From Thermococcus sp. M39 (GTDB taxonomy: Archaea; Methanobacteriota_B; Thermococci; Thermococcales; Thermococcaceae): a stretch of DNA of 64,000 bases. The notes beneath the pieces are model-generated. The model made no database searches. It had not been told where the DNA came from and saw nothing but the letters and a program-made list of their open reading frames with translations. Positions within the stretch are counted from its first letter, which is position 1. Every line of letters starts with the position of its first letter. Both the position numbers and the translations under genes were made by a program. Of the stretch, positions 6,531 to 62,947 are shown piece after piece. The stretch is from the NCBI RefSeq assembly GCF_012027325.1, contig NZ_SNUG01000001.1, positions 248,001 through 312,000 on the forward strand, given 5' to 3'.

Positions 6531-7025
6531 ATGCTCACAGGTAGGACTCTAATTGCTGTGAAGCTGCTTAAACCATTTGGTGATTGGAAAGCGGGAGATA
6601 TGGTTTTAATTGAAGATTGGAAGGCTAAGGAGCTCTGGGAAAGTGGAGTAGTTGAGATAATAGATGAGGCTGAAAAAGTCATAGGTGAAATTGATAGGGT
6701 TATTGCGGAGGAGAAAGAAAGTGAGCCTATAACCCCAATTCCAGAAGGGCTTTATGAGAGAGCTGAATTTTACATTTATTATCTGGAGAACTATATAAAG
6801 GAGAATTTTGAAGGCAACGTTGACGTCTTAAATGCAAAGATGACAAGGTTGGCGAACTTAAAAAAGAAGTATCACTACCTCAAAAGGCTTCGCTTTAATA
6901 AAATCCTCAATGCAATAATGTTCCGCCCAAATAGCTTGGAGGTTCTTTCGAGGTTGTCTCCAGAGGAGAGGAGAGTCTATCTTCAAATCTCTAAAATAAG
7001 AAATGAGTGGCTAGGTGAGAAGTAA
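6531..7025 (+). CDS. gins23: GINS subunit Gins23 (archaeal Psf2/Psf3 homologue)
   Basis: 164 residues from ATG 6531, five bases after an AGGTG site; GTG 6522 and ATG 6525 lie within or touch that site. The protein has the small beta-rich B-domain first (about 1-45, VKLLKPFGDWKAGDMV) and the helical A-domain after it, with the basic KKKYHYLKRLRFNKI stretch near 125-140. GINS joins MCM and GAN/RecJ to make the archaeal CMG-like replicative helicase. The stop TAA shares its last A with the ATG of mcm (TAATG), so the two subunits of one machine are translationally coupled. Confidence 0.88.
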   Translation: MLTGRTLIAVKLLKPFGDWKAGDMVLIEDWKAKELWESGVVEIIDEAEKVIGEIDRVIAEEKESEPITPIPEGLYERAEFYIYYLENYIKENFEGNVDVLNAKMTRLANLKKKYHYLKRLRFNKILNAIMFRPNSLEVLSRLSPEERRVYLQISKIRNEWLGEK

Positions 7026-10000
7026 TGGACAAGGAGGAGATGATTAACCGTTTTGTAAGCTTTCTTAGAGAGTATTCTGATGACAAGGGCAATAAAGTTT
7101 ATCTTAATAAAATAAGCGACATCTTAACTGTTATTCCAAAGCACTCAATTTCAATAAACTGGGAGCATCTAAATGGATTTGATCCAGAATTAGCTCAAGA
7201 GCTTTTGGACAACCCGGAAGAAACTTTACTAGCAGCTGAAGATGCACTTCAGATAATCCTCCAAGAGGAATTTTTTAGGAAGGAGCCCTTAAAGCTTCAT
7301 GCACGCTTTTATAATTTACCAAAAACCCTCTTAGTTAAGGAGCTGGGCAGTGAACACATAAACAAGCTCATTCAAGTTGAAGGGATTATTACTAGAATGA
7401 GCGAAGTCAAGCCGTATGTATCTAAGGCTGTTTTTGTGTGTAAGGACTGTGGGAATGAGATGATTCGCCTGCAGAAACCCTTTGCTTCCCTGGTTAAGCC
7501 CTCCAAGTGCGACCAGTGTGGAAGTAAAAACATTGAGCTTGATGTTGATAAGAGCAATTTCATCAATCTGCAGACATTTAGACTGCAAGATAGACCTGAA
7601 AGCTTGAAAGGTGGACAAATGCCTCGCTTCGTTGATGCAATTCTATTGGACGATTTAGTTGACTCTGCTTTACCAGGTGATAGGGTTGTAATAACTGGCA
7701 TTTTAAGAGTGATTTTGGAGCAGAGAGAAAAGAGGCCGATTTTTAAGAAGATACTTGAGGTTAATCATATAGAGCAGATAAGCAAGGAGATTGAAGAGCT
7801 TGAGATTACGCCAGAGGATGAGCAGAAGATTAGGGAATTGGCGAAGAGGAAGGATATAGTTGATGCAATTGTGGATTCAATAGCTCCGGCTATTTACGGC
7901 TATCGCGAGGTTAAGAAGGGGATAGCCCTTGCTTTGTTTGGCGGTGTTACGAGGCAATTACCTGATGGTACTAAGTTGAGAGGAGAGAGCCACGTTCTGC
8001 TTGTTGGAGATCCTGGTGTGGCAAAGTGTGTTGATTACGATACAAAGATAGTTCTATCTGATGGTAGCTTAGCAAAGATTGGGGATATTGTTGAAGAGGC
8101 TATAAGAAAAGCAGAAGCCTCTGGAACGCTTGGTAAAGTAAATGACGGTGTCTATGCACCAATTAATTTAGAGCTGTATGCATTAGATGCTGAAACTCTT
8201 AAAGTTAGAAAAGTTAAGGCAAACATAGCTTGGAAAAGAATGGCACCTGAAAAGATGTACAAGATAAGAACAAAGAGTGGAAGGGAAATTAAGGTAACTC
8301 CAACCCATCCATTCTTTATCTTTGAAGGAGGACAGTTCAAGACGAGAAAAGCAGAGGAGCTTAAAGTTGGTGATTTAATTGCAGTCCCACGCGAGATTAA
8401 GGCAAAGGGGAAGCCTGTTAAATTGAGTGAAATTCAAATTAGAGAGTCTAAGGCAAATAATTGCATTCATCTTAAGCTCCCTGAGTTCGCTGATGAGGAG
8501 TTTTGGTATGTTATTGGATTGCTTGTTGGAGAAGGATATGCTCAAAACCGTGATGGAAGTGCTACTGTCTACTTCACCAATGATGACAGCACATTAATAT
8601 TAACGGTTTATAACTACCTCAGAAAACTCGGTCTTAATCCAACTATACGGAACTCTCACAAAGGAAAGAGTGCTAAGGAAGTCTATGTATGTAGCATAGA
8701 GTTCTACAGCCTATTGGAGGCTTTGGGAATAGCAACAAAGTCAGCTGAAAAGATTGTCCCACCTCAGCTGTTTGGTGCAAGGCTATCAGATATAGTTGCA
8801 TTTCTTAGGGGTTACTTTGATGTTGAAGGAACTGTAGACAGGAAGAGACCAAAGATCACTGTAGTTTCAGCGTCAAAAGAACTTCTCAAGGGGATTCAGC
8901 ATCTTCTCTTAAGATTGGGTGTGAAATCTCAGCTTCATGCTACTAAAGCAAGAGCCACAAATGGCAAAATGAAAGAGACAAAAACTTACTATCGCTTGTT
9001 CATAACTGGTGAGGATGTAATTAAGTTTGCTAAAAATGTTGGCTTTAGCATTGAAAGAAAGAAGGAGTTATTAGAGTCTGTTATAGCAGTTGACTTTAAC
9101 ACGAATACTGACGTTATTCCGGGAGTAGGGAGTCTATTAAAAGAAATCCGTCTCGAGCTTGGACTTAGGCAGAAAGATATGGGAATAAATCGTTCAACTT
9201 ATCTTCACTATGAAAGGAATGACAGACGGCCAAGTAGGGAAAAGCTAAAGAAAATAGTTGAAACCCTAAAGCATTATCAGAATGAAAAAGTTGCCGATAA
9301 AGTAGCATTGCTTGATCTTCTTGCTAATTCGGATATTTACTGGGATGAGATTGAAGCAATTGAGGAATACGCTCCTGAACATCCATGGGTTTACGATTTA
9401 CAGGTTCCAGAGCATCACAACTTTATCGCAAACGATTTCTTTGTCCATAACAGCCAAATTTTACGCTATGTTGCCAATTTAGCTCCAAGAGCGATCTATA
9501 CTAGTGGTAAGAGCTCTTCGGCAGCTGGTCTGTGTGTTGCTCCGGACTCAGTTGTGGTGACTGAAAACGGTGGATTTGAAATAGGAGCTCTTACTGAAAA
9601 TTGGCTGTCTAAGATTGGCTCGATTGAATATGACAAGGGCATAAACTACGCTCCATTCCTCGGGGAGACTGTTTCAATAGAGAGAGGTAAGATATCCCAA
9701 AATCTGCTCAGAAAAGTGTGGAAGCTCAGGGCTCCTAAGAATCTCGTAAAAATCAGAACAACAACAGGAAAAGAAATCCTCCTAACGTCCGAAACAAAGC
9801 TCATGACGCTAGAAAACGAAACCATTACATGGAAGGAAGCAAAGGATATTTCCTCCAATGATTATGTTGCTACCGTCAGGAAGCTGGAAGTGAAGGAGAA
9901 ACCCCTGCTGACCCTTGAACTCCTTGAAGACCTTGACGATCTTGTACTTTACGGGATAAAGGGCAAGGTAAAAGAGCTCATAGAAAAAGCGTGTGAAAAT

Positions 10001-12400
10001 CTTGGAATAACAAAGAGAGAGCTTGCAAGAGTGCTCAGTGTAAGTGAAGACTCGGTTTATTACCATTGGGTGAAACCCAACTCCCGGGGTAACATTCGTA
10101 TGAAGCACCTTCGTCGGCTGATTGAATTGGCTGAGGCAAGTTTGGAAGAGATAGAGCCAGAATACGTGTCTCTGCAGGCTGGAACTAAGCTCAAAATTCC
10201 GAAGTATGTTGATGAAAAGCTCGCATACTTTGCAGGTCTTATCGCTGGGGATGGAGACGTCTCAAGAGCGGGCTGGGGAGTCTCGATAAGGTTTTCAAAC
10301 AGCAATGAGTTTATACGAGAGAAGTTCAAAAAACTAGCAGAGGAGCTGTTTGGCGTTGAGGTAAAGGAAATCAGACAGAAAAACCGCGTGCCAGCTGTTA
10401 GATTCCACTCAAAGATTATTGCACACGTACTCAATAAGCTTGGCATTCCAATGTCTCCAAAGTCTTCAACGCTCGACATAGGGCCTCAGCTTATGGTGGC
10501 TCCGAAGAACGTTCTTGCAGCATTCATACGTGGTCTGTTCGACTGTGATGGAACAGTTGTCATCCGCGAAGGTGGTTCGTCATACATTGAGCTTGATACT
10601 GCTAGTGAGAAACTCGCGAGAAAATTGCAGCTTGCTCTTCTCCGCTTTGGAATAGTCGCACATTTAAGGAAGCGCAAAAGAGCTGGGATGATCTCAAAGA
10701 TAAATGGAAGAGGCGTTGTTTCAAGGCACGACCGCTGGGAGCTGAAGATTTACGGAGAAAATGCCCTTAAGTTTGCAACATATATAGGCTTTGAACACCC
10801 AGAGAAAGCTAAAAAGCTTGAACTTCTCCTTGAAAAGCTCAAACAGTCGAGAAGCGATACGAACATTGACGTCATTCCTGGAGTCGGAGGGCCAATAAAA
10901 GAAATTAGAACTTTCTATGGACTCGGCATAAATGAAGTTTACGGTTCCTCTTTTGGAAGCGCGATTGAAAAAGGAAAACCAATCTCGAGAAGATCTCTCC
11001 AGCGGGTTGTTGAGAGACTTAGGAAAAATGCGAACATTTTAAACGTTCCCGTTAAGTTACCAAGTGAAATAAGGGCCAGAATTAGGAACTTAATCAAACC
11101 AGAAGAACTTAGTATGGACTATAGTCAATTCTATGAACTGTTCATGAGGAAAAGAAGTAAGAAGCTCCCCTATGGTTTGTTAGTGAAAGTTGCAAGGCTC
11201 ATTGAAGGGAGAGACAAAAAGACTTACAATGAACTTGCGTGGATCCTTAGTGAAATTACCAGAATAGAAGAAGAAATCAAGAACAAACTTCATGTCCTTG
11301 AAGAACTCGCTTACTCTGACATCTTATGGGAGAAAGTGAGAGAGGTAAAAACAATCAGAAGTCCCTACGACTACGTCTACGATCTCACAGTTGAAGGTTC
11401 TCACAGCTTCATTGCCAACGGCTTCGTGGTTCACAATACGGCTGCAGCCGTCCGCGACGAGTTTACAGGCTCTTGGGTGCTGGAAGCTGGTGTTTTGGTG
11501 CTGGCAGATGGTGGTTTCGCACTAATTGACGAGTTCGACAAGATGAGCGATAGGGATAGAAGTGCTATACACGAGGCGCTTGAGCAGCAAACAATCAGCA
11601 TCTCAAAAGCGGGCATTACAGCAACTTTAAACGCAAGAACAACAGTTATAGCTGCTGCAAATCCAAAACATGGAAGGTTCAACAAGATGAAGCCTCTTCC
11701 GGAGCAGCTCGATTTACCACCAACTCTGCTCAGCAGATTTGACCTCATATTTGTCCTCATAGATGAGCCTAATGAAAAGCTTGATGCCGAAATCGCATCT
11801 CACATCTTGAAAGTTAGAAAAGGAGAAGCTGAAGCTATAACTCCAAAGATTCCGTATGATTTGCTCAAAAAATACATAGCTTATGCAAGGAAGAATGTTC
11901 ATCCAGTTCTCAGCAGGGAAGCCATGGATGAGATTCTCCACTATTATGTCAAGATGAGAAAGGGTCTTAAGAAAACTACGGAGAGTGAGGGAATAAAGCC
12001 AATCCCAATAACTGCCAGACAGCTTGAAGCACTGATAAGACTCAGTGAAGCACATGCAAGGATGCGCTTGAGTGAGGTAGTTACCAGGGAAGATGCGAGA
12101 GAAGCGATAAAGCTTGTTGAATACACCTTGAGGCAGATAGCCGTTGATGAAGAAGGCGTCATGGATATTTCAATCCTTGAAGTTGGCAAATCGGCGAGGA
12201 AGATAAACAAGGTTGAAAAAGTGCTGGAGATAATTGAAGCTCTTCAAGACCAATCAGAATATGGTGCCCCAATAGATGACATAATTAAGGAGGCCGTGAG
12301 AGCAGGAATTGATAAGAAAGAAGTTAGAAAGCTTATTGAAGATCTTAAAGCTAGTTCAAGGATTTATGAACCAAGGAACGGTTACTATAAAGTACTGTGA
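7025..12400 (+). CDS. mcm: Replicative DNA helicase MCM with two inteins
   Basis: 1791 residues as translated; removal of two inteins (475 and 635 residues) leaves a 681-residue MCM, the normal archaeal length. MCM is the hexameric 3'-5' ATPase that unwinds DNA at the fork. The N-terminal zinc ribbon is seen as CKDCG and CDQCG. The Walker A sequence GDPGVAK (328-334) is cut by intein 1 directly before its Ser. Walker B is FALIDEFDK and the arginine finger is in LLSRFDL. A winged-helix domain forms the C-terminus. The extein piece between the inteins is only 27 residues (810-836). Without splicing of both inteins the ATPase site cannot form. Confidence 0.98.
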   Translation: MDKEEMINRFVSFLREYSDDKGNKVYLNKISDILTVIPKHSISINWEHLNGFDPELAQELLDNPEETLLAAEDALQIILQEEFFRKEPLKLHARFYNLPKTLLVKELGSEHINKLIQVEGIITRMSEVKPYVSKAVFVCKDCGNEMIRLQKPFASLVKPSKCDQCGSKNIELDVDKSNFINLQTFRLQDRPESLKGGQMPRFVDAILLDDLVDSALPGDRVVITGILRVILEQREKRPIFKKILEVNHIEQISKEIEELEITPEDEQKIRELAKRKDIVDAIVDSIAPAIYGYREVKKGIALALFGGVTRQLPDGTKLRGESHVLLVGDPGVAKCVDYDTKIVLSDGSLAKIGDIVEEAIRKAEASGTLGKVNDGVYAPINLELYALDAETLKVRKVKANIAWKRMAPEKMYKIRTKSGREIKVTPTHPFFIFEGGQFKTRKAEELKVGDLIAVPREIKAKGKPVKLSEIQIRESKANNCIHLKLPEFADEEFWYVIGLLVGEGYAQNRDGSATVYFTNDDSTLILTVYNYLRKLGLNPTIRNSHKGKSAKEVYVCSIEFYSLLEALGIATKSAEKIVPPQLFGARLSDIVAFLRGYFDVEGTVDRKRPKITVVSASKELLKGIQHLLLRLGVKSQLHATKARATNGKMKETKTYYRLFITGEDVIKFAKNVGFSIERKKELLESVIAVDFNTNTDVIPGVGSLLKEIRLELGLRQKDMGINRSTYLHYERNDRRPSREKLKKIVETLKHYQNEKVADKVALLDLLANSDIYWDEIEAIEEYAPEHPWVYDLQVPEHHNFIANDFFVHNSQILRYVANLAPRAIYTSGKSSSAAGLCVAPDSVVVTENGGFEIGALTENWLSKIGSIEYDKGINYAPFLGETVSIERGKISQNLLRKVWKLRAPKNLVKIRTTTGKEILLTSETKLMTLENETITWKEAKDISSNDYVATVRKLEVKEKPLLTLELLEDLDDLVLYGIKGKVKELIEKACENLGITKRELARVLSVSEDSVYYHWVKPNSRGNIRMKHLRRLIELAEASLEEIEPEYVSLQAGTKLKIPKYVDEKLAYFAGLIAGDGDVSRAGWGVSIRFSNSNEFIREKFKKLAEELFGVEVKEIRQKNRVPAVRFHSKIIAHVLNKLGIPMSPKSSTLDIGPQLMVAPKNVLAAFIRGLFDCDGTVVIREGGSSYIELDTASEKLARKLQLALLRFGIVAHLRKRKRAGMISKINGRGVVSRHDRWELKIYGENALKFATYIGFEHPEKAKKLELLLEKLKQSRSDTNIDVIPGVGGPIKEIRTFYGLGINEVYGSSFGSAIEKGKPISRRSLQRVVERLRKNANILNVPVKLPSEIRARIRNLIKPEELSMDYSQFYELFMRKRSKKLPYGLLVKVARLIEGRDKKTYNELAWILSEITRIEEEIKNKLHVLEELAYSDILWEKVREVKTIRSPYDYVYDLTVEGSHSFIANGFVVHNTAAAVRDEFTGSWVLEAGVLVLADGGFALIDEFDKMSDRDRSAIHEALEQQTISISKAGITATLNARTTVIAAANPKHGRFNKMKPLPEQLDLPPTLLSRFDLIFVLIDEPNEKLDAEIASHILKVRKGEAEAITPKIPYDLLKKYIAYARKNVHPVLSREAMDEILHYYVKMRKGLKKTTESEGIKPIPITARQLEALIRLSEAHARMRLSEVVTREDAREAIKLVEYTLRQIAVDEEGVMDISILEVGKSARKINKVEKVLEIIEALQDQSEYGAPIDDIIKEAVRAGIDKKEVRKLIEDLKASSRIYEPRNGYYKVL
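8027..9451 (+). other. Intein 1 in MCM (Walker A site, Cdc21-a position)
   Basis: 475 residues (335-809), starting at Cys335 after GDPGVAK and ending FFVHN before Ser810. It shows an N-terminal splicing block beginning CVDYDTKIV, a TPTHPFF block B, two LAGLIDADG-type motifs (LLVGEGY and LRGYFDVEGT) and a C-terminal block HNFIANDFFVHN. It is therefore a complete splicing element with a DOD homing endonuclease. A helix-turn-helix-like stretch (LGLRQKDMGINRSTYLHYE) lies late in the endonuclease region. The insertion point equals the known Cdc21 site a of other Thermococcales. Confidence 0.95.
9533..11437 (+). other. Intein 2 in MCM (SSAAGL/T site, Cdc21-b position)
   Basis: 635 residues (837-1471), from Cys837 after SSSAAGL to FVVHN before Thr1472. 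Splicing blocks are CVAPDSVVV at the start and HSFIANGFVVHN at the end. Two LAGLIDADG motifs (GLIAGDGDV and IRGLFDCDGTV) mark a homing endonuclease. It is larger than intein 1, with an extra helical region of about 150 residues between the endonuclease and the C-terminal splicing block. The +1 residue is Thr. The site matches the known Cdc21 site b, in the conserved segment just before the ATPase presensor region. Confidence 0.95.
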
Positions 12401-53786: not shown

Positions 53787-54815
53787 ATGAGCAAGTTTGA
53801 TGCACTCTTCAAATCAATAAAAGAGAAAGCAAAAGTTGTTGATGATGTCATCTTTGAGCTTTTGCCTGAAAAGGAGCCGAAAGAGCTGTATGCAGCAACA
53901 AGACACTATCCCCTAGCTGGAGGAAAGAGAGTCAGACCTTTTGTCGTTCTCACTGCTACAGAGGCTGTTGGTGGGGACTGGAAGAAAGCCCTTTACCCAG
54001 CTGCAGCAATAGAGATTCTCCACACTTATACGTTAATTCACGATGACATCATGGATATGGACGAGACAAGAAGAGGAAGAGCAACGGTCCACAAAGTGTG
54101 GGGCATCAACATGGCAATCCTCGCTGGGGATTTAATGTACTCTGTTGTCTTTGATGCGGCAACAAAAGCTCCAGTCAGTGCAGAAAAGATCGTTGAAATC
54201 GTCAGAGCAATAGCGAGGGCAGGTATTGAGATATGTGAAGGTCAAGCTCTTGACCTTGAATTTGAGACAAGAGACGCAGTCACAATTGACGAGTATCTAA
54301 AGATGATTGACGGTAAAACTGCGGCCCTCTTTGACGCTTCTGCAAAGATTGGGGGTATAATTGGAACAGACAACCAAGAGTATATACAAGCACTTTCAAA
54401 GTATGGAAGAAACGTTGGGCTGGCATTTCAAGTTTGGGATGATGTCCTTGACTTAATTGCCGATGAGGAAAAACTTGGAAAGCCAGTTGGGAGTGACATA
54501 AGGAAAGGCAAGAAGACGCTTATAGTTGCTCACTTCTTCCAGCATGCGAGCGAAGAGGATAAAGCTGAATTCTTGAAGGTGTTCGGCAAATATGCTGGAG
54601 ATGTTAAGGGCAAGGGCATAATTGAAGAAGACATTAGAGAGGAGGTTGCAAAAGCAATTGAGCTGCTCAAGAAGTATGGAAGCATTGAATATGCTGCAAG
54701 ATTTGCCAAAGACCTAGTAAAGGAAGCTAAAGAGGCCTTGAAAGTTCTTCCAGAAAGTGAAGCAAGGAGAAATCTTGAGTTATTGGCTGATTTCATCGTG
54801 GAGAGGGAGTATTAG
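53787..54815 (+). CDS. idsA: Geranylgeranyl/farnesyl diphosphate synthase
   Basis: 342 residues, short-chain trans-prenyltransferase making the chains of archaeal lipids. Start at ATG 53787 behind GAGGTGATA; the longer frame lies in rnj. First Asp-rich motif DDIMDMDE (about 87-94) and second VWDDVLDLIADEEKLGKP (about 215-232) are complete. GGKRVRPF binds IPP. Confidence 0.97.
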   Translation: MSKFDALFKSIKEKAKVVDDVIFELLPEKEPKELYAATRHYPLAGGKRVRPFVVLTATEAVGGDWKKALYPAAAIEILHTYTLIHDDIMDMDETRRGRATVHKVWGINMAILAGDLMYSVVFDAATKAPVSAEKIVEIVRAIARAGIEICEGQALDLEFETRDAVTIDEYLKMIDGKTAALFDASAKIGGIIGTDNQEYIQALSKYGRNVGLAFQVWDDVLDLIADEEKLGKPVGSDIRKGKKTLIVAHFFQHASEEDKAEFLKVFGKYAGDVKGKGIIEEDIREEVAKAIELLKKYGSIEYAARFAKDLVKEAKEALKVLPESEARRNLELLADFIVEREY

Positions 54816-54905
54816 TGGATTTTCCTTACTCCCTCCGCTTGAATAATTACGAGGGAGAAATAATTTCGCTGGCTTTCATTTTATTTGTTTTATCTGGTTT
54901 AGTTT

Positions 54906-55438
54906 TTGAGTCCATTAGAATTTGAGATTAACTTTGCATCTCTGTGGAATATCTTGTGTTATCTAATCCTTCCATTGATTTTTGTCGTCGTTGCTCATGA
55001 GGTGCTTCATGCTGCAGCTGCAAAGCTCTTTGGGGCTAAAGTTGAGTTTGGAATTTCAGTTTTTGGAAAAGTGAATTTAGCTCCCTACACAGGTATAAGG
55101 ACTCCTCTAAGAAAGAGAGAGAGTGGATTTACATTATAATTGCCCCTGTTTTATTGTCTGCTGTCGCTTTTGTCCTCGCCTTTGCTTTGAAAAGTCTATG
55201 GTGGGGAGTTGTTTTTATATTCAACACTTCTGGCTTAGCGGGGGATTTGTTGGCCTTGATAATCATCGGCAGAATGTCTGATGGTGCTTTGATTGTGGAT
55301 GAAGGAACTGTTACAAAAGCTACTCATGAATTTCCGAGGATTTCGAGGAGAACTTCCATAATGATCAAGATCCTTGCTTTAGCTTTGCTGCTTTGTATCA
55401 TTTTGAACTTTAGGGTTGAGGTTGTTATGGGGAAGTGA
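54906..55438 (+). pseudogene. DUF3267-like membrane zincin, frameshifted at a GA repeat
   Basis: From TTG 54906 the frame encodes a membrane segment with the zinc motif AHEVLHAAAAKLFGAK, then stops at 55139. The rest (REWIYIIIAPVLLSAVAF, two more membrane segments and the C-terminus to 55438) continues one frame away. The break falls in AAGAGAGAGAG at about 55113-55123. Removing one GA restores a single 176-residue frame (533 - 2 nt = 177 codons). The product would be a small membrane metallopeptidase of the DUF3267 kind. The end overlaps the convergent ATPase gene by 14 bp. TTG start has no good ribosome site. Confidence 0.75.
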
Positions 55439-56786
55439 AGTCACCAAGGTCGAACACCAAATAGCCTTTCTCTCTAAGTTCTTCTTTCCTATCAACATGT
55501 TTTGCAATCAATCCGTAATGTTCTGCTTTTGTGCTTATTTTAACGCTTTTGCGCTTTTCTTTTAGTTCTTTTAAGATTTTCATAGCATTTTTGTATGAAA
55601 GCTCCTTCCATTTGACCTCAAAGAAGCCCGCTTCGCGTGTGATGCTATTAATAGTCACCAAGTCAATCTCTTTCTCTTTGTCCCACCATCTGCCGATTTT
55701 TGTGAACTTGAAGGGGAGCTTACTTTCAATGTTCAGTTTAATCAGAAACTGCCTTGCAACTCTTTCAAAGACTTCTCCAAGATACTTATTGAATTCATCC
55801 CTAAAATCCTCAAAACTTATTGCTCCAATCTCTATGTCATCCTTGTAGGGATAAACAAAGCGAAGCCAAAAACGATAGTAAAAGTCTTTTACTCGGTAAA
55901 TCCCAAACTTTCTGCGCTCTCTTTGTGTTATCGGAAACTCTTTGTAGATTAAGTCGAGTGTTTCAAGTGTTTTCAGGTATTTTGGCAGGTTTGTTATTGC
56001 TATCTTAGTTTCGTTAGCTATTTCTGTAAGCTTGGTTTTTCCTTCATTAATAGCTTTTAAGATGTTTAAATAATCTATCGGTTCTCTAAGCTCGTCTTTC
56101 AGGAGTCTTTCGGCATCTTCATAAAGGATGCTCACCTTGTTGTAAAAATTGCGCTCAATGTTTTCTTCAACGCTCAGCGAGTCGTTAAAGTACTGAAAAT
56201 ATGCGGGAATTCCATCGATGCATCCGTAAACTTTCACGAGTTCTTCCCATGAGTAGCGGGGAAAAGCTTCTTTTAAGTGGAAGAATCCAATCGGTGAGAG
56301 CTTTAGCTGAGCGGTTCTCCTTCCGTAAAGGGGATTTTTATAGCTCATCAAGCTTTCCATCGTGGAAATTGAAGAGCCGAGAAGAATGAGCATAATCCGT
56401 GAGTCCTTTAGAATTTCATCCCATATGTACTGGAAAACTGAAGGAATAGATTTGTCCTCCTCCACCCAGTATGGGAACTCATCAATAACAAAAACAAGCC
56501 TTTTAAAATCTTTAACTTTTTCAAAAAACTCCTCCAAGCTACGGGCTTCAATGAAGACGTTGAACTTTCTGTTAAAATTCTGAATTAGGCGAGTGAGTTC
56601 AAGCTCTATTGGCTCTTTTCTCGCTAAGAAATAAAAGCTGGGTTTGTCTTTTATGAACTGCTTGATTAGTTCAGTTTTTCCAATTCTTCTGCGTCCATAG
56701 ATTAGGATAAGGTGAGCTTTATTTTGGATGTAAAGCTCCTCAAGTGCTTTGAGTTCTTCTTCTCTGTCGATGAATTTTAGTATCAT
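55425..56786 (-). CDS. Archaeal AAA ATPase with DUF234 nuclease-like C-terminus
   Basis: 453 residues from ATG 56786. P-loop YGRRRIGKTELIKQF at about 30-44, Walker B LVFVIDEFPYW near 100, a winged-helix region (KTKLTEIANETKIAITNLPKY) and a C-terminal DUF234 part with a PD-(D/E)xK-like site (DKEKEIDLV then FFEVKWK). This is the PF01637 family, abundant and mobile in Thermococcales. Function is not established; host-defence or element-linked roles have been suggested for relatives. The start codon lies in a perfect 15-bp palindrome. Confidence 0.92.
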   Translation of the reverse strand: MILKFIDREEELKALEELYIQNKAHLILIYGRRRIGKTELIKQFIKDKPSFYFLARKEPIELELTRLIQNFNRKFNVFIEARSLEEFFEKVKDFKRLVFVIDEFPYWVEEDKSIPSVFQYIWDEILKDSRIMLILLGSSISTMESLMSYKNPLYGRRTAQLKLSPIGFFHLKEAFPRYSWEELVKVYGCIDGIPAYFQYFNDSLSVEENIERNFYNKVSILYEDAERLLKDELREPIDYLNILKAINEGKTKLTEIANETKIAITNLPKYLKTLETLDLIYKEFPITQRERRKFGIYRVKDFYYRFWLRFVYPYKDDIEIGAISFEDFRDEFNKYLGEVFERVARQFLIKLNIESKLPFKFTKIGRWWDKEKEIDLVTINSITREAGFFEVKWKELSYKNAMKILKELKEKRKSVKISTKAEHYGLIAKHVDRKEELREKGYLVFDLGDFTSP

Positions 56787-56800
56787 GATATTAAATATCA
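56786..56800. promoter_or_regulatory. Palindrome over the start of the ATPase gene (candidate operator)
   Basis: TGATATT-A-AATATCA has perfect 7-bp arms. On the minus strand it starts just before and includes the first base of ATG 56786, with a TTAAATTTAATAA TATA-like element 15-25 bp upstream. A protein bound here would block initiation. Confidence 0.5.
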
Positions 56801-56893
56801 CGTTATTAAATTTAAGAGTTTCGGCTAAGAGATTTTCACAGTTGATAATGATTTTGCGGTATATAGATTTGGGATTGTGCCGTGATGTTTTAA

Positions 56894-57652
56894 TCAGTAT
56901 GCAACATCCATCTTTCTGAAAAGGATGTATGCAATTATTAGCATAGCACCTGAAAAAAGCGTGAGCGTAGCTATTTGAAAAGCAGTATTTACTTGTATCC
57001 CCAGAAGAGACGCTCTTATTAAGTTCGCTGCATATGTTAAAGGATTAAACTTTGCAATTTCTGAGATGAGTGGGGGGAGATATTCAGGAGGATAGAATAT
57101 GCCGCTAATTGCTATTATTGGCGTTGTTATCATCCTGTTGAACATTGTTAGCTTGTCTGGAGTCTTTACAACTGCACTGACACAGAATGACAGTGATGCA
57201 AATATTATTGAACTCATCACAACAGCATAAAGAAACAGGAATGGGGTGGCATATGAAAGGCTCACTTCATCTTTTATTATTGTAGTAGAAAGCAGCCCTA
57301 AGGTTATGGCAGTTGATGACGAGATTATAACAATTGAGAGCACCCTTGAGAGGAAATATTCAGCTCTTGAGGAAAAGCTCAAAATTTGCTCTAACATTCC
57401 ATTGTATTTATCTGTCCAGAGCATTGACCCGCATAATATCGAAAGCTGCAGAGTATTTATCAAAATGGCAGCAGGTACAAAAAAGGCGGAATAGCTTAAA
57501 TATCTGTCATACATCGGTATAGGTTTTACAATTTTGTTGTATGCCAATGAAATTATGAAAATGTAAATGAGCGTTGGAAGGAGTAAGCTAAAAAACAGGT
57601 GAGGCCTCAGGTCATAGGTCGTTCTTAGATTCCGATATATCAGGCGTCTCAT
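56894..57652 (-). CDS. ABC-2 type permease
   Basis: 252 residues with six membrane segments in ABC-2 layout and the typical FYPPEYLPPLISEIAKFNPL loop before the last part. It starts at ATG 57652, behind GGTGAT, and overlaps the ATPase gene by 41 bp. With that ATPase it makes a two-component exporter. It is the last gene of the peptide/radical SAM/ABC operon, so the likely cargo is the modified peptide; that is inference. Confidence 0.9.
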   Translation of the reverse strand: MRRLIYRNLRTTYDLRPHLFFSLLLPTLIYIFIISLAYNKIVKPIPMYDRYLSYSAFFVPAAILINTLQLSILCGSMLWTDKYNGMLEQILSFSSRAEYFLSRVLSIVIISSSTAITLGLLSTTIIKDEVSLSYATPFLFLYAVVMSSIIFASLSFCVSAVVKTPDKLTMFNRMITTPIIAISGIFYPPEYLPPLISEIAKFNPLTYAANLIRASLLGIQVNTAFQIATLTLFSGAMLIIAYILFRKMDVAY

Positions 57653-58352
57653 TTTTAATCACCTTAAGATATGCCTCTTCTAAGTTGGCTGAGTTGGTTT
57701 TCCTAATTAGAGACTTTGGAGAGTCAATTGTTAATATTCGTCCCTTATTTATAATTGCGATTCTGTCGCATAGTCTTTCTGCTTCCCACATATTGTGAGT
57801 TGTAAAGAATACGGGGATTTTCATATTCCTTATAACTTCGATGACCTTATACCTCGATTCAACATCTAAGCCAACTGTAGGCTCATCAAGAAACAATAAC
57901 GTTGGTTTATGTACTAATTCCCTGGCTATTTGGAGTCTTCTTCTTTGTCCAATTGATAGTTCAATAGCTTTTTTGTTTGGCTTTAAATCGAATTCATTAA
58001 TAAGTTTTGAGGCTCTTTCTTTGGCTTCCTCTTTGCTTAACCCTCTTAGGTATCCGTAAAGCCAGATATTTTCAAACACTGAGAGATAAGGTTCAAAGCT
58101 AATTCGTTGCTGAACATAACCAATGCTTTTTCTTTCCTCTCTTGAAAGCTCTTTTGGACTTTTCCCGAAGATTTTAACGGAGCCTTTGTCTGCCCTTAAG
58201 ATACCAAGAATTATTCTCACTGTAGTTGTTTTACCAGCACCATTGGGCCCTATAAATCCAAATATCTCTTTTTTAACATCAAAGCTTATTCCTTTAAGCA
58301 CCCATGTACTGCTAAACTTTTTCCATAAATTTGAGACTGAAATGACCTTCAT
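57612..58352 (-). CDS. ABC transporter ATPase, exporter type
   Basis: 246 residues. Walker A GPNGAGKTTT (about 34-43), Q-loop VQQ, signature ELSIGQRRRLQIA (a variant of LSGGQ), Walker B LLFLDEP and the switch TTHNMWEAERLCD. CcmA/DrrA-like drug and peptide exporter ATPases look like this. It begins 14 bp after the restored stop of the radical SAM gene and appears intact, as does the permease. Confidence 0.93.
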   Translation of the reverse strand: MKVISVSNLWKKFSSTWVLKGISFDVKKEIFGFIGPNGAGKTTTVRIILGILRADKGSVKIFGKSPKELSREERKSIGYVQQRISFEPYLSVFENIWLYGYLRGLSKEEAKERASKLINEFDLKPNKKAIELSIGQRRRLQIARELVHKPTLLFLDEPTVGLDVESRYKVIEVIRNMKIPVFFTTHNMWEAERLCDRIAIINKGRILTIDSPKSLIRKTNSANLEEAYLKVIKNETPDISESKNDL

Positions 58353-58366
58353 GGTTTATCCCTTGA

Positions 58367-59748
58367 TTAATTTAAGTAGCTTGAATATTTCAAGATAATG
58401 TCCATAGCTTCGTTGAATATTCTACATACTATCGGGCAGGATACTCTTCTCCTAGTTCATAACTTCTGAAGGCTATTCCGGGGCAAACACCACCACATAA
58501 GGCATAATACTTACAAGATTTGCATTTTTGGAGTATGTCTAATGATTTTAATTTTCCGTATATGTCTTTCCAATCTCTACGTATATCCCTTGAATCTGAC
58601 AAGAGTTCTTTTAGTGACTTTTCTTTTAGAGAGCCTAATTTCCATTCTGTCATTCTATCACATGGAGTAATTGTTCCATCAGGTTCAATATTTATATAAG
58701 CAATGTAGGGTACACACTGAAATGAGAATTTTTCAAATTCTTTATTATCTTGGAGTAGTTCTATGTTAAATGAGCCAATAATACGAAATCCTGAATTTTC
58801 TTTGTTGTATATGGACATTAATCGCAATAAATTCTCAAGAAACTCTCGAATTTCTTGTATAGTTGGTCTAAACTCTTTCCAATTTATAAATCCACATCCA
58901 ACTGGCATTATTAAAGTTGGAATCCACATAGAGACATTTAGATCAAGCAAAAGGTCAACAAAATCTTCCATTCTTCCTATTAGATGTCCTCTCAAAGAAC
59001 TAGCAACAGCTACGTTTACACCATTATCGGTTAATGTTTTGATTGAGGTAATAATTTTTTATATGCGCCAGGAACACCAACAAAGGGATCAACATCCTGC
59101 TCGCTAATGCCATGTAATGAGACTTGGACAATAAGATTATCAATTTTAGATATTTTTTAATTATCTCCGGGGTTAGAAGTGTGGCATTTGTATAAACTCG
59201 TAGTGGAAATGCATATTCACCTGCATACTGAAGTAGTTGGAGAGTGTCCCTTCTTAGAAAAGGTTCTCCCCCTGTGAAGAATAAATAACTTGCTCCATAT
59301 TCTGAGAGTTGATCAATTATGTTCATCCATTCCTTGGCTGTTAGTTCTTTAATTTGTGGGCTCCACTTATTATTACCTTGAAGACAATGTTTACATTGGA
59401 AGTTACATCTATGAGTCAAAGTTAGAAGGGCTCTGCTACACATACTAAATGGATAAATTTCTACAGATTTGCTCTCGTATGTATCGCTGAAAGTAATTAT
59501 CCCTAGGTTATGCATTTCTAGTATTGTTTTAGCAACATCTTCTTGTGGTACCCCCATGTCATTGGATATTTCTTCACATATTTGATCAAATGTTAGCTTC
59601 TCTTTTGAAATTCTCAGTACAATTTCTTTGAAAATAGAATCACCGAATCACCGAAATAATAATCATTTTGGTAATAGGGTTCGACGAAATAATACTTGCC
59701 CCTATATTCATGAAGGCGTAATGGTCTAAGAAGAGATATATAGACCAT
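58367..59748 (-). pseudogene. PqqD-like/radical SAM/SPASM peptide maturase, broken by four indels
   Basis: Starts at ATG 59748 behind AGGGTGAG. Domains in order: a PqqD-like winged helix (about 1-95, RPLRLHEYRGKYYFVEP then DSIFKEIVLRISKEK), a radical SAM core with CNFQCKHC and FTGGEPFLRR, and a SPASM-type Cys-rich end (CVPYIAYINIEPDGTITPCD, CKSCKYYALCGGVCPG). Four breaks: tandem 8-bp GAATCACC copies at 59637-59652, missing A in two A6 runs (plus-strand T runs 59153-59158 and 59055-59060) and one missing base near 58441, after which the frame reads SCPIVCRIFNEAMDIIL. Undoing all four gives exactly 459 codons (1382 - 8 + 3). Such enzymes install thioether or C-C links in peptides. Confidence 0.88.
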
Positions 59749-59786
59749 TCTGCTCACCCTAAGGGAAAAATATTAAAAATTTGAAA

Positions 59787-59939
59787 TTAAACGTTATTGG
59801 CTAACTTATTTATCTCATCTATGAACTCTTTATGATATACTGAAATTCCGATATATTTATCTTCTCCAGCATGGAAACCTTTTGTATTTATCACACAACT
59901 AAACTTTTTTAAATGTTGAGAACTCCTTTTCCTATTCAT
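59787..59939 (-). CDS. Short peptide, candidate RiPP precursor
   Basis: 50 residues from ATG 59939, well placed after GGTGATA (ATG 59942 is too close to it). The N-terminal half is basic (MNRKRSSQHLKKFSCVINTK), the middle Gly/Tyr-rich (GFHAGEDKYIGISVYH) and the C-terminus amphipathic and helical (KEFIDEINKLANNV). It has one Cys (15), no signal peptide and no known domain. It is 38 bp upstream of the PqqD-like radical SAM gene on the same strand and first in the operon, where a precursor is expected. No family match is claimed. Confidence 0.6.
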   Translation of the reverse strand: MNRKRSSQHLKKFSCVINTKGFHAGEDKYIGISVYHKEFIDEINKLANNV

Positions 59940-59992
59940 CATTATCACCAAAATATTACTATAACTCTTTGTTTATTTTTTCTATAACTATA

Positions 59993-60008
59993 AGTTTAAA
60001 ACAAAAAG
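59993..60008 (-). promoter_or_regulatory. TATA-like element of the peptide/radical SAM/ABC operon
   Basis: Minus strand reads TTTTGTTTTAAACTTA, about 60 nt upstream of ATG 59939 in an AT-rich 131-bp gap behind leuS. Initiation would be near 59970. Confidence 0.4.
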
Positions 60009-60070
60009 TTAGATATACAATCTACCAAACTCAAAAACTAGTAATGATAAAAAGGGAATAAAAGCAAAGC

Positions 60071-62947
60071 TCACTCAATAAACACCGCAGGCTTCATCGG
60101 CATTGCTTGCTTCTTCTTTCCGCCTTTGTCCTCCTCTGGATTAATTACAATCTCCAAGCCAAGCTCCTTCTCAATGAAGTCTTTTGCTTCTCTCAAGGCT
60201 TTCTCCTCATCAATGCGCTTTATGTCAAAAGCTCTCTCTTTTATCAGCTTGTTCACTAGGTTTGCCACTTCTTTGCCCTTCTTTCTCATCTCTGGATCTT
60301 TCATGACTTCGCTCATCACAGCCTTAAAGTCTCTCTTCTCTGCAACAATCTCAGCAACTTTCCACTTCCACTCTGGAGCTGTATAGATATAGGCTTTCTT
60401 TGCATCCTCCAGCTTTGCAACCTTTATAATTTCCTTAATGTCCTCAATCAGCGACTTAATGTAATCCTCTTCCAGCTCTATTGCCTCGTTCCACCACTCT
60501 GGATTTGGCTCAGGCCACTTAGCCAAGCTGACAAATCCCTCTCCGCCTAGCTTTTCCCACAGCTCCTCACAGATATGTGGTGTAAACGGTGCCATCAAGC
60601 GAACCCATATATTCGCCAGTGTCCTCAAGACATAGCGCTTTGCTTCGTCGTCTCTGCCTTCAGTCCTCCTCATGTACCATCTCAAGTCGTTCAATATGCT
60701 GTAGAATGCCCACTGGACAGCAGTCCTCGTCCTAAACTCTTCCAAGGCTTTAGTTGCTCCCTCAATCGCTTTGTTCAATCTGTGTAGCATCCATTTGTCA
60801 ATGTCTTTCAACTCAGCTGGCTTTGCCTCATATTCAGCAAATTCGCTTATCAGCTCATAGAACCTCTCTAACTGTCCTCTCAGCTTTGATACTTCTTTGT
60901 TCCTCCAGTCAAAGTCGCTGTCATGCTCAGCTAAGCTCATTATGTACAGCCTCACGACATCGGCTCCGTTCTCGTTTATCGCGTCAATGAAGTTCAGTAC
61001 GTTTCCTTTGCTCTTGCTCATCTTCTTACCTTCCAGCGTTCCGTAGCCATTGACGGCTATTCCCTTCGGCCAGTGCTCCCTTCTGAACAGTGCTACATGA
61101 TTGAAGACAAAGAACGTTAGGTGGTTTGGGATTAGGTCTTTAGCAGAGCATCTCCAGTCCAGTGGATACCAGTATTCAAACTCCTCTTTCATCTCTCTGA
61201 TAACTTCAGCTGGAATTCCAGTCTTTTTGCTCAGCTCTTTCTCTTTCTCCTCGCTCCTCTCATCTAGGAATATGTAATCGAACAGCTCTGGAATCAGTTG
61301 CTCCCCTCTAATGCCGTACTTGTTAATCGCTCTTGAGATTGTGTAGTAAGCCATGTAAATCGTTGAATCGCTCAAGCTCTCAATCACCCATTCTGGGTCC
61401 CAAGGTAGCGGAGTTCCCAGTCCAATCTTTCTTGCACATGCTTTCTTGTCCAGCCAGTCAAATACAGCTTTGAATTGGGCTCTCCTTGACTCTGGGATTA
61501 TTTTCATCTGCTCCAAGCACTCAAAAGCCTTAGCTTTCCACTCTGGGTTTCCGTAGTCAATGAACCACTGGTCGTGGATTATCTTAATCACAGCCCTGTT
61601 TCCAAACCTTGAAATGACATTCTTTTCAGCAAATTCATACATGATGTCGGCGATTCCTTTCTTCTTCATGTCTTCAGCAATTATGTCCTTAACTTTGCTC
61701 ACTGGAATGCCCTTGTACGGCTCAATCTTGAAGATGCCCTTATGGTATTCAGCCTTGTATATTGTCTTTGTTGCCTGCTCCAGCTTTTCTTTGTCCTCTT
61801 GGCTCTTCACTCCTAGCTTTGCAACCTCTTCAACTGCTGGGAACTCGCCGTAGCCTTCCAGCTCAATCAGCGAGATGTACGTGATGTTCTCGACGATTCT
61901 TGGATCAATATCATACTTCAGCAAAATGTCTGTGTTTCTCTTCAAATCTTCCAGAGCGGCATGGTCAAATGGTGCATGCGCTGGAACGCTCATAACAACA
62001 CCGGTTGCGTTGTCTGGGTCAACGAAATCTGCTGGCAGAATTATTATCTCATCTCCAGTAACGGGATTCTTAACCCACTTGCCTATCAGCTTCTCTCCCT
62101 TGAACTCCTCCAATACTTCAATCTCCTTATCTTGGAAGCTCAGCTTATAGGCTGCCTCTTTGCTGACTACCCATATTTCCTCTTTTCCTTTGTATATCAC
62201 TTTAGCTTTGACGTATGTAGCATTGGGGTTCAGCCACATGTTAGTTACTCCGTAAACTGTCTCTGGTCTCAGCGTTGCTGCTGGCAAGTAAATAATCTCA
62301 CCATCCTCCTCTAAGATGAACTTAATTAAGATGTACTCCAAAATTGGAACATCTTCTCCATCCATCAAATCATGGTCGCCGAGAGGTGTTCCAACAACTG
62401 GATCCCATCTAACTCTGTGTGCTCCTTTAACTATCAGCCCTTTCTCTTTCAGCCTCAAGAACTGCCAAGTTATGAAAGCATTAAACTGCGGATGCAGTGA
62501 AGTTGTGTGAAACTCTCTGCTCCAGTCAACGCTGAATCCAGCTCTAATGAATGTCTCCTTTGCTGCTTTCATGAAGTATTTGACGATGTTTATTGGATCC
62601 TCAAACGTCCACAGAATATCTTCCGGCACTTTGTAAACATCTCTGTAAACAAAAATCGTCTGAGGATCGCGGTGCTTTATTCTTTCGGCAATTCCAACTA
62701 TTGGTGAACCTGTGATGTGCCATGCCATTGGGAACAAAACATTGTAACCCTGCATTCTCTTGAATCTCGCTATAACATCTGGGATTGTGTACGTCCTTGC
62801 GTGTCCAACGTGCAGATGCCCTGATAGGTATGGGAAAGCAACTGTGATGTAGAACTTTGGCTTATTTCTATCTATCTTTGGCTCAAAGATTTTCTCTTCG
62901 TTCCACTTCTTCTGCCACTTCTCCTCAATAGCCCTAAAATCTACCAT
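60071..62947 (-). CDS. leuS: Leucyl-tRNA synthetase
   Basis: 958 residues, archaeal/eukaryal-type LeuRS. HLHVGH (residues 44-49) and KMSKS near residue 640 bind ATP. The CP1 editing domain (about 160-480) contains [12 protein letters not shown] and the Asp of [13 protein letters not shown]. The anticodon-binding and C-terminal domains follow. ATG 62947 follows GGGAGGTCAG. It is transcribed away from rpl15e, with a leader of about 130 nt that begins with a long hairpin. Confidence 0.97.

Follow-up and report, generated by a model that had tools for sequence, protein, structure and literature searches.

A probable mobile radical SAM RiPP cassette in Thermococcus sp. M39 with a maturase gene that looks recently inactivated

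The window considered here, a 64,000-nucleotide stretch of one contig of Thermococcus sp. M39, contains at positions 56894 to 59939 four genes that run in the same direction on the minus strand and encode a short peptide, a radical SAM/SPASM enzyme, an ABC transporter ATPase, and an ABC-2 permease (Table 1). The cassette is flanked by the gene for an archaeal AAA ATPase (55425 to 56801) and by that for leucyl-tRNA synthetase (60071 to 62947). The original prediction described a four-gene, one-direction operon with an intact precursor and exporter and a defective enzyme, and this description is borne out: the peptide, ATPase, and permease genes are open, and the breaks are confined to the enzyme gene. 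Both transporter proteins score above the Pfam cut-offs, and the permease gene overlaps the ATPase gene by 41 nt, as it does in relatives. No protease or peptidase gene lies within the conserved limits of the cassette, and the cassette carries no mobility genes of its own. The arrangement recurs at 77 to 80% protein identity in another genus, represented by genomes G078 and G082, and the locus is therefore not a chance arrangement.

Table 1. Positions of the cassette genes, enzyme domains, and breaks within the window
Feature	Position	Strand	Basis or remark
Candidate precursor peptide gene, 50 codons + stop	59787..59939	-	Open in window and both relatives
Upstream region common to both genera, presumed promoter and leader	59940..60013	-	DNA alignment
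Radical SAM/SPASM maturase pseudogene	58367..59748 (about)	-	Alignment to intact 474-aa homologues, Pfam, NCBIfam
Region coding for N-terminal RRE-like domain, interrupted at 59637-59652	59490..59748	-	AlphaFold, Foldseek
Radical SAM cluster motif CNFQCKHC (CX3CX2C)	59384..59407	-	Cysteines invariant in alignment
SPASM domain	58430..58707	-	TIGR04085, 48 bits versus cut-off of 27; PF13186
Break 1, frameshift from an 8-bp tandem duplication (two copies of GAATCACC, + strand)	59637..59652	-	Alignment
Break 2, one base short at A6 run (coding strand)	59153..59158	-	Alignment
Break 3, one base short, at or adjacent to A6 run (coding strand)	59055..59060	-	Alignment
Break 4, one base short (~58437), just before last SPASM cysteine	58434..58440	-	Alignment
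ABC transporter ATPase, 246 aa	57612..58352	-	PF00005, E = 9e-31
ABC-2 permease, 252 aa	56894..57652	-	PF01061, E = 2e-18
Cassette interval absent from congener G092	56825..60049		~30 bp in its place there

The predicted radical SAM core and SPASM cysteine motifs are both recovered, by Pfam and NCBIfam matches and by alignment of homologues; in Pfam, the pieces of the window enzyme match Radical_SAM (E = 1e-15) and SPASM (E = 3e-8). The intact homologue has the cluster motif CX3CX2C, in the form CNFKCKHC, and a complete seven-cysteine SPASM motif as defined previously (PMC6231123), consisting of C-x12-G-x4-C, then CX2CX5CX3C and a final Cys; in the window, this seven-cysteine motif is complete only across the fourth break. 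None of the NCBIfam equivalogs or maturase models reached its own cut-off with the enzyme. The best raw scores were those of the heme-synthesis relatives NirJ2 (124 bits) and AhbD (121 bits), each with a cut-off of 500, and scores below cut-off were likewise obtained with the mycofactocin and PQQ maturase models (TIGR03962, 111 versus 265 bits; TIGR02109, 100 versus 381 bits), the model for sactipeptides of the SKF type (TIGR04403, 80.9 versus 300 bits), and that for the ranthipeptide enzyme PapB (NF047865, 64.2 versus 340 bits). An AlphaFold model of the intact homologue, based on a 28-sequence alignment (pLDDT of 77, pTM of 0.76), found its best whole-protein fold matches with Foldseek in SkfB (E = 2e-15) and SuiB (E = 1e-14, ~470 aligned columns). 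The strain's own genome holds no second or replacement copy of the enzyme, the next best match being 33% identical.

We term the N-terminal domain of the enzyme RRE-like on the strength of its modeled fold. The isolated domain of the intact homologue is predicted to adopt a beta3-alpha3 arrangement (pLDDT of 65), the element order by which RREs are defined, and many of its first Foldseek neighbors are RiPP enzymes with RRE domains, each match being weak (best E = 0.03) and fold searches with small domains being subject to false positives in Foldseek (2025 study, PMC12710340). The Pfam PqqD profile does not match this domain, and a profile-profile comparison (hhalign) with three PqqD-type domains was negative, at 2.7% probability, so the likeness to RREs is one of fold and not of sequence profile. 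The PqqD-like winged helix proposed from the sequence is modeled as a beta3-alpha3 fold with weak matches to RRE domains and is not recognized as PqqD by profile.

The peptide gene encodes MNRKRSSQHLKKFSCVINTKGFHAGEDKYIGISVYHKEFIDEINKLANNV, beginning with an ATG at 59939 and preceded within a few bases by a ribosome-binding site graded as good (GGTGAT, 59944 to 59949); no Rfam family was detected in the upstream region common to both genera. The peptides of the window and of G078 are identical at 29 of 50 positions, with a conserved block at codons 12 to 39 (KFSCV.NTKG.HAGE..YIGISVYHKEF) and variable ends that are much less constrained. Within this 28-codon block, the 18 DNA differences from G078 are distributed 4/0/14 over codon positions 1/2/3 (13/10/27 over the whole gene), and the NG86 omega of the gene is 0.08, an approximate value given that synonymous sites are near saturation. 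Because of the codon-position pattern in the block, the small open reading frame is counted as protein coding and, by this comparison of sequences, is a genuine protein under purifying selection. Searches of Pfam, NCBIfam, PHROGs, and PADLOC gave no family for the peptide. Of 115 genomes of the phylum, exactly three contain it, the same three that contain the enzyme, a small sample that comprises two diverged cassette lineages. A weak peptide match in the congener G088 (E = 0.1, with a stop) sits among ABC genes resembling those for iron uptake and was dropped. The peptide has one cysteine and no tryptophan, and the caution originally expressed, that a peptide with a single Cys and no known core motif leaves the product class unpredictable, still holds: single-cysteine thioether, Tyr/His cyclophane, and Glu-Tyr (as in PQQ) chemistries were weighed, and the data select no bond chemistry.

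Among the 94 Thermococcaceae genomes searched, close matches to the enzyme (80 to 81% identity) are those of G082 (contig LGET01000076 of Thermococcales archaeon 44_46) and G078 (a complete chromosome of 2,215,172 bases), the rest being at most 33% identical. In each, a 52-codon relative of the peptide gene, running from ATG to stop, lies ahead of a gene for a 474-aa enzyme, after which come counterparts of the ATPase and permease genes, all four open and in the gene order of the window, such that the proposed look in other Thermococcales found intact homologues next to the same small open reading frame and transporter. Their cassettes lie between genes for enolase and a fibrillarin-like protein (gene identities assigned by eye), unlike that of the window. 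Six congeners of the window strain are without the cassette; its flanks are ~30 bp apart in G092, and G088 and G090 have neither the cassette nor the AAA ATPase gene. The GC content of the cassette is 35 to 36% in both hosts, compared with 42.8% for the whole window and 44 to 46% for the flanks in G078, and DNA similarity between the genera starts ~75 bp before the peptide gene and ends at the end of the permease gene. Based on the low GC content in both hosts, the different chromosomal sites, and the limits of similarity at its ends, the cassette is, as far as such comparisons can tell, a 3.1-kb unit that moved as a whole and reached two different chromosomal sites. No convincing direct or inverted repeats were found at the cassette ends. 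At the site occupied by the cassette in the window, the congener G087 has a gene for a 353-aa HEPN-domain protein (L146:3324-4385), and the position next to leucyl-tRNA synthetase is a possible insertion hotspot.

A wider scan of contigs returned the 44_46 copy and otherwise distant radical SAM proteins at 19 to 33% identity, and a BLAST screen of the neighborhoods of these distant proteins detected no like cassette. Viral contigs and plasmids hold no close relative of the peptide or cassette (plasmid radical SAM matches are <30% identical among the matches listed), and the permease has only generic matches of 21 to 30% elsewhere in the phylum. Two sets of candidates were set aside: loci in Tepidibacter have paired radical SAM enzymes and are not the window's system, and Thermoproteota matches at 30 to 34% are not accompanied by an ABC-2 pair or a related peptide. 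Several of the Thermoproteota homologues adjoin genes that, by eye, resemble those for heme biosynthesis.

Compared with the intact 474-aa homologue, the enzyme gene in the window has four internal frameshifts and a 19-nt difference at its tail, a gap in the last codons. The pieces between breaks contain no in-frame stops, and their dN/dS relative to G078 is ~0.06 to 0.09 in three of four pieces, the fourth being saturated at synonymous sites. Given the low dN/dS and the lack of stops, inactivation of the enzyme in this strain looks recent. The silent strain could reflect simple loss or an immunity-only remnant, that is, a broken locus kept by selection for a transporter that would protect against producing relatives. 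Such retention is a possibility that we regard as somewhat doubtful: every break falls in the enzyme gene and none in the peptide or transporter genes (P of ~0.04 under uniform placement for all four breaks and of ~0.10 for the three further breaks after the first), and the transporter genes have low omega values relative to G078 (0.14 for the ATPase and 0.13 for the permease), but the clustering statistic is weak, the low omega may date from selection that preceded the recent inactivation, and the peptide gene, which would not be needed for immunity, is open as well.

Frameshifts also occur in a neighboring gene for a zincin-like DUF3267 protein (54815 to 55438), which has an extra T in a T-run and an extra GA in a GA-run and is open at 206 to 209 aa in four congeners; together with the breaks in the maturase, these suggest that short repeats are prone to indels in the window strain. 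Of the genes in the window whose G092 orthologue is open and lies on the same strand, the DUF3267 gene is the only other one that is frameshifted. Other flags raised in the G092 comparison concern antisense or alternative-start open reading frames, or the multipiece match of a large gene at 7025 to 12400 (this 1,791-codon gene aligns in pieces to a 2,259-codon gene in G092 and possibly encodes the large subunit of DNA polymerase II, differing in inteins). Because just one other comparable gene in the window is frameshifted, the pattern favors real slippage mutations over assembly error. Alternatively, the organism might have an intact enzyme, with the breaks introduced during sequencing or assembly. 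This reading would accommodate the two breaks at A-runs, the stop-free pieces with dN/dS near 0.08, an assembly in 54 contigs, and the disruption of the DUF3267 gene, but that gene stands alone among its comparable neighbors, and the adjoining ATPase, permease, and AAA ATPase genes are open. Nor do the 8-bp tandem duplication, the 19-nt gap, and the single base lost at a distance from long runs resemble homopolymer errors. Such artifacts are considered unlikely.

The sporulation killing factor (SKF) locus of Bacillus subtilis encodes the precursor SkfA, the radical SAM maturase SkfB, and an ABC ATPase and permease. It is like the cassette in combining a short precursor, a radical SAM enzyme with an RRE (an RRE-like domain in the cassette), and a two-gene ABC transporter, and SkfB is the top match of the enzyme by both fold and sequence (6EFN, the best solved-structure match by sequence, E = 8e-19). 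In SkfB, however, a Twitch domain carries a single auxiliary cluster (PMC6231123), whereas the cassette enzyme has a full seven-cysteine SPASM domain, and the cassette further differs in being without a protease gene and in having one cysteine in its peptide. The streptide-type maturase SuiB consists of RRE, radical SAM, and SPASM domains, resembling the RRE-like, radical SAM, and SPASM domains of the cassette enzyme, and matches in fold over ~470 columns, but is only ~16% identical to the cassette enzyme, and the Lys-Trp bond of streptides is impossible in a peptide without tryptophan. CteB and PapB (sactisynthase and ranthipeptide enzymes) have a trimodular RRE, radical SAM, and SPASM organization like that predicted for the cassette enzyme with its RRE-like domain, with a sequence match of the cassette enzyme to CteB (5WGG, E = 5e-10), but have precursors with several cysteines as opposed to one, and the PapB model scored below its cut-off. 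We see the cassette as an unclassified member of the radical SAM RiPP loci with a narrow distribution, and not as a system of a new kind.

Loci with PqqD-radical SAM-SPASM enzymes beside an MFS transporter occur in three Thermococcaceae genomes (L012, L013, and L014) and may represent a separate RiPP locus. The radical SAM parts of these enzymes are 31 to 33% identical to that of the cassette enzyme, and in L012 and L013 Pfam recognizes a PqqD domain. These loci differ from the cassette in having an MFS instead of an ABC-2 transporter. No match to the 50-aa peptide was detected beside these radical SAM genes.

A short precursor gene is conserved next to the maturase, as expected of an RRE-dependent radical SAM RiPP locus. 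Leader proteases are common in loci of this kind but not universal, and the absence of one is not decisive; ABC-2 transporters of the type found in the cassette are generic. With homologues located beside a small open reading frame and a transporter, and with that reading frame under apparent purifying selection, the view of this region as a RiPP locus of a hyperthermophile gains support, and we consider it likely to be a small radical SAM RiPP cassette that moves horizontally and in which the enzyme gene was recently inactivated, in the window strain, by slippage-type indels. By analogy with SkfB, SuiB, and CteB, we infer that the enzyme acts on the peptide and that the transporter exports it. 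In intact copies, the 474-aa enzyme would bind the peptide of 50 to 52 aa via its RRE-like N-terminal domain. This enzyme is predicted to contain a radical SAM cluster along with two auxiliary clusters in the SPASM domain, and it would introduce cross-links or other modifications at residues of the conserved 28-residue block. Export of the product, protection of the producer from it, or both would fall to the ATPase and ABC-2 permease, and the leader would have to be cut by a host protease, since the cassette encodes none. It is improbable that the small open reading frame is not the substrate and that the enzyme instead carries out a small-molecule or heme-type modification whose product the transporter moves, as the top-scoring NirJ2 and AhbD models and the heme-like neighborhoods of some of the closest Thermoproteota homologues might imply, because those scores are far under cut-off, the best alignments to these models begin only past the RRE-like domain, and peptide and enzyme co-occur one to one, with a strongly conserved central block in the peptide.

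Few archaeal RiPPs are known from experiments. A 2025 study counts just two haloarchaeal lanthipeptides as validated earlier and describes archaeal radical SAM RiPPs as unexplored (PMC12144867), and we found no description of radical SAM RiPPs from Thermococcales in the open-access literature. More tentatively, the cassette might represent a new RiPP family of hyperthermophilic archaea that is transferable although it encodes neither a protease nor mobility functions, with silenced-maturase strains perhaps being resistant nonproducers. The cassette has a single modifying enzyme and a single candidate substrate, of 52 residues in the intact version from a hyperthermophile, which makes its chemistry directly testable, and the broken copy offers a natural nonproducer for comparison.

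A second radical SAM island is present, and open, elsewhere in the same genome (L156, contig C10:1-6924). The contig begins 175 bp upstream of this island, and a precursor gene may be cut off. The island encodes a 397-aa radical SAM protein, a stand-alone PqqD protein of 89 aa (PF05402, 47 bits), a protein of 368 aa with weak similarity to H4MPT-linked C1 proteins, two ABC ATPases together with an ABC-2 permease, and a large protein resembling permeases.
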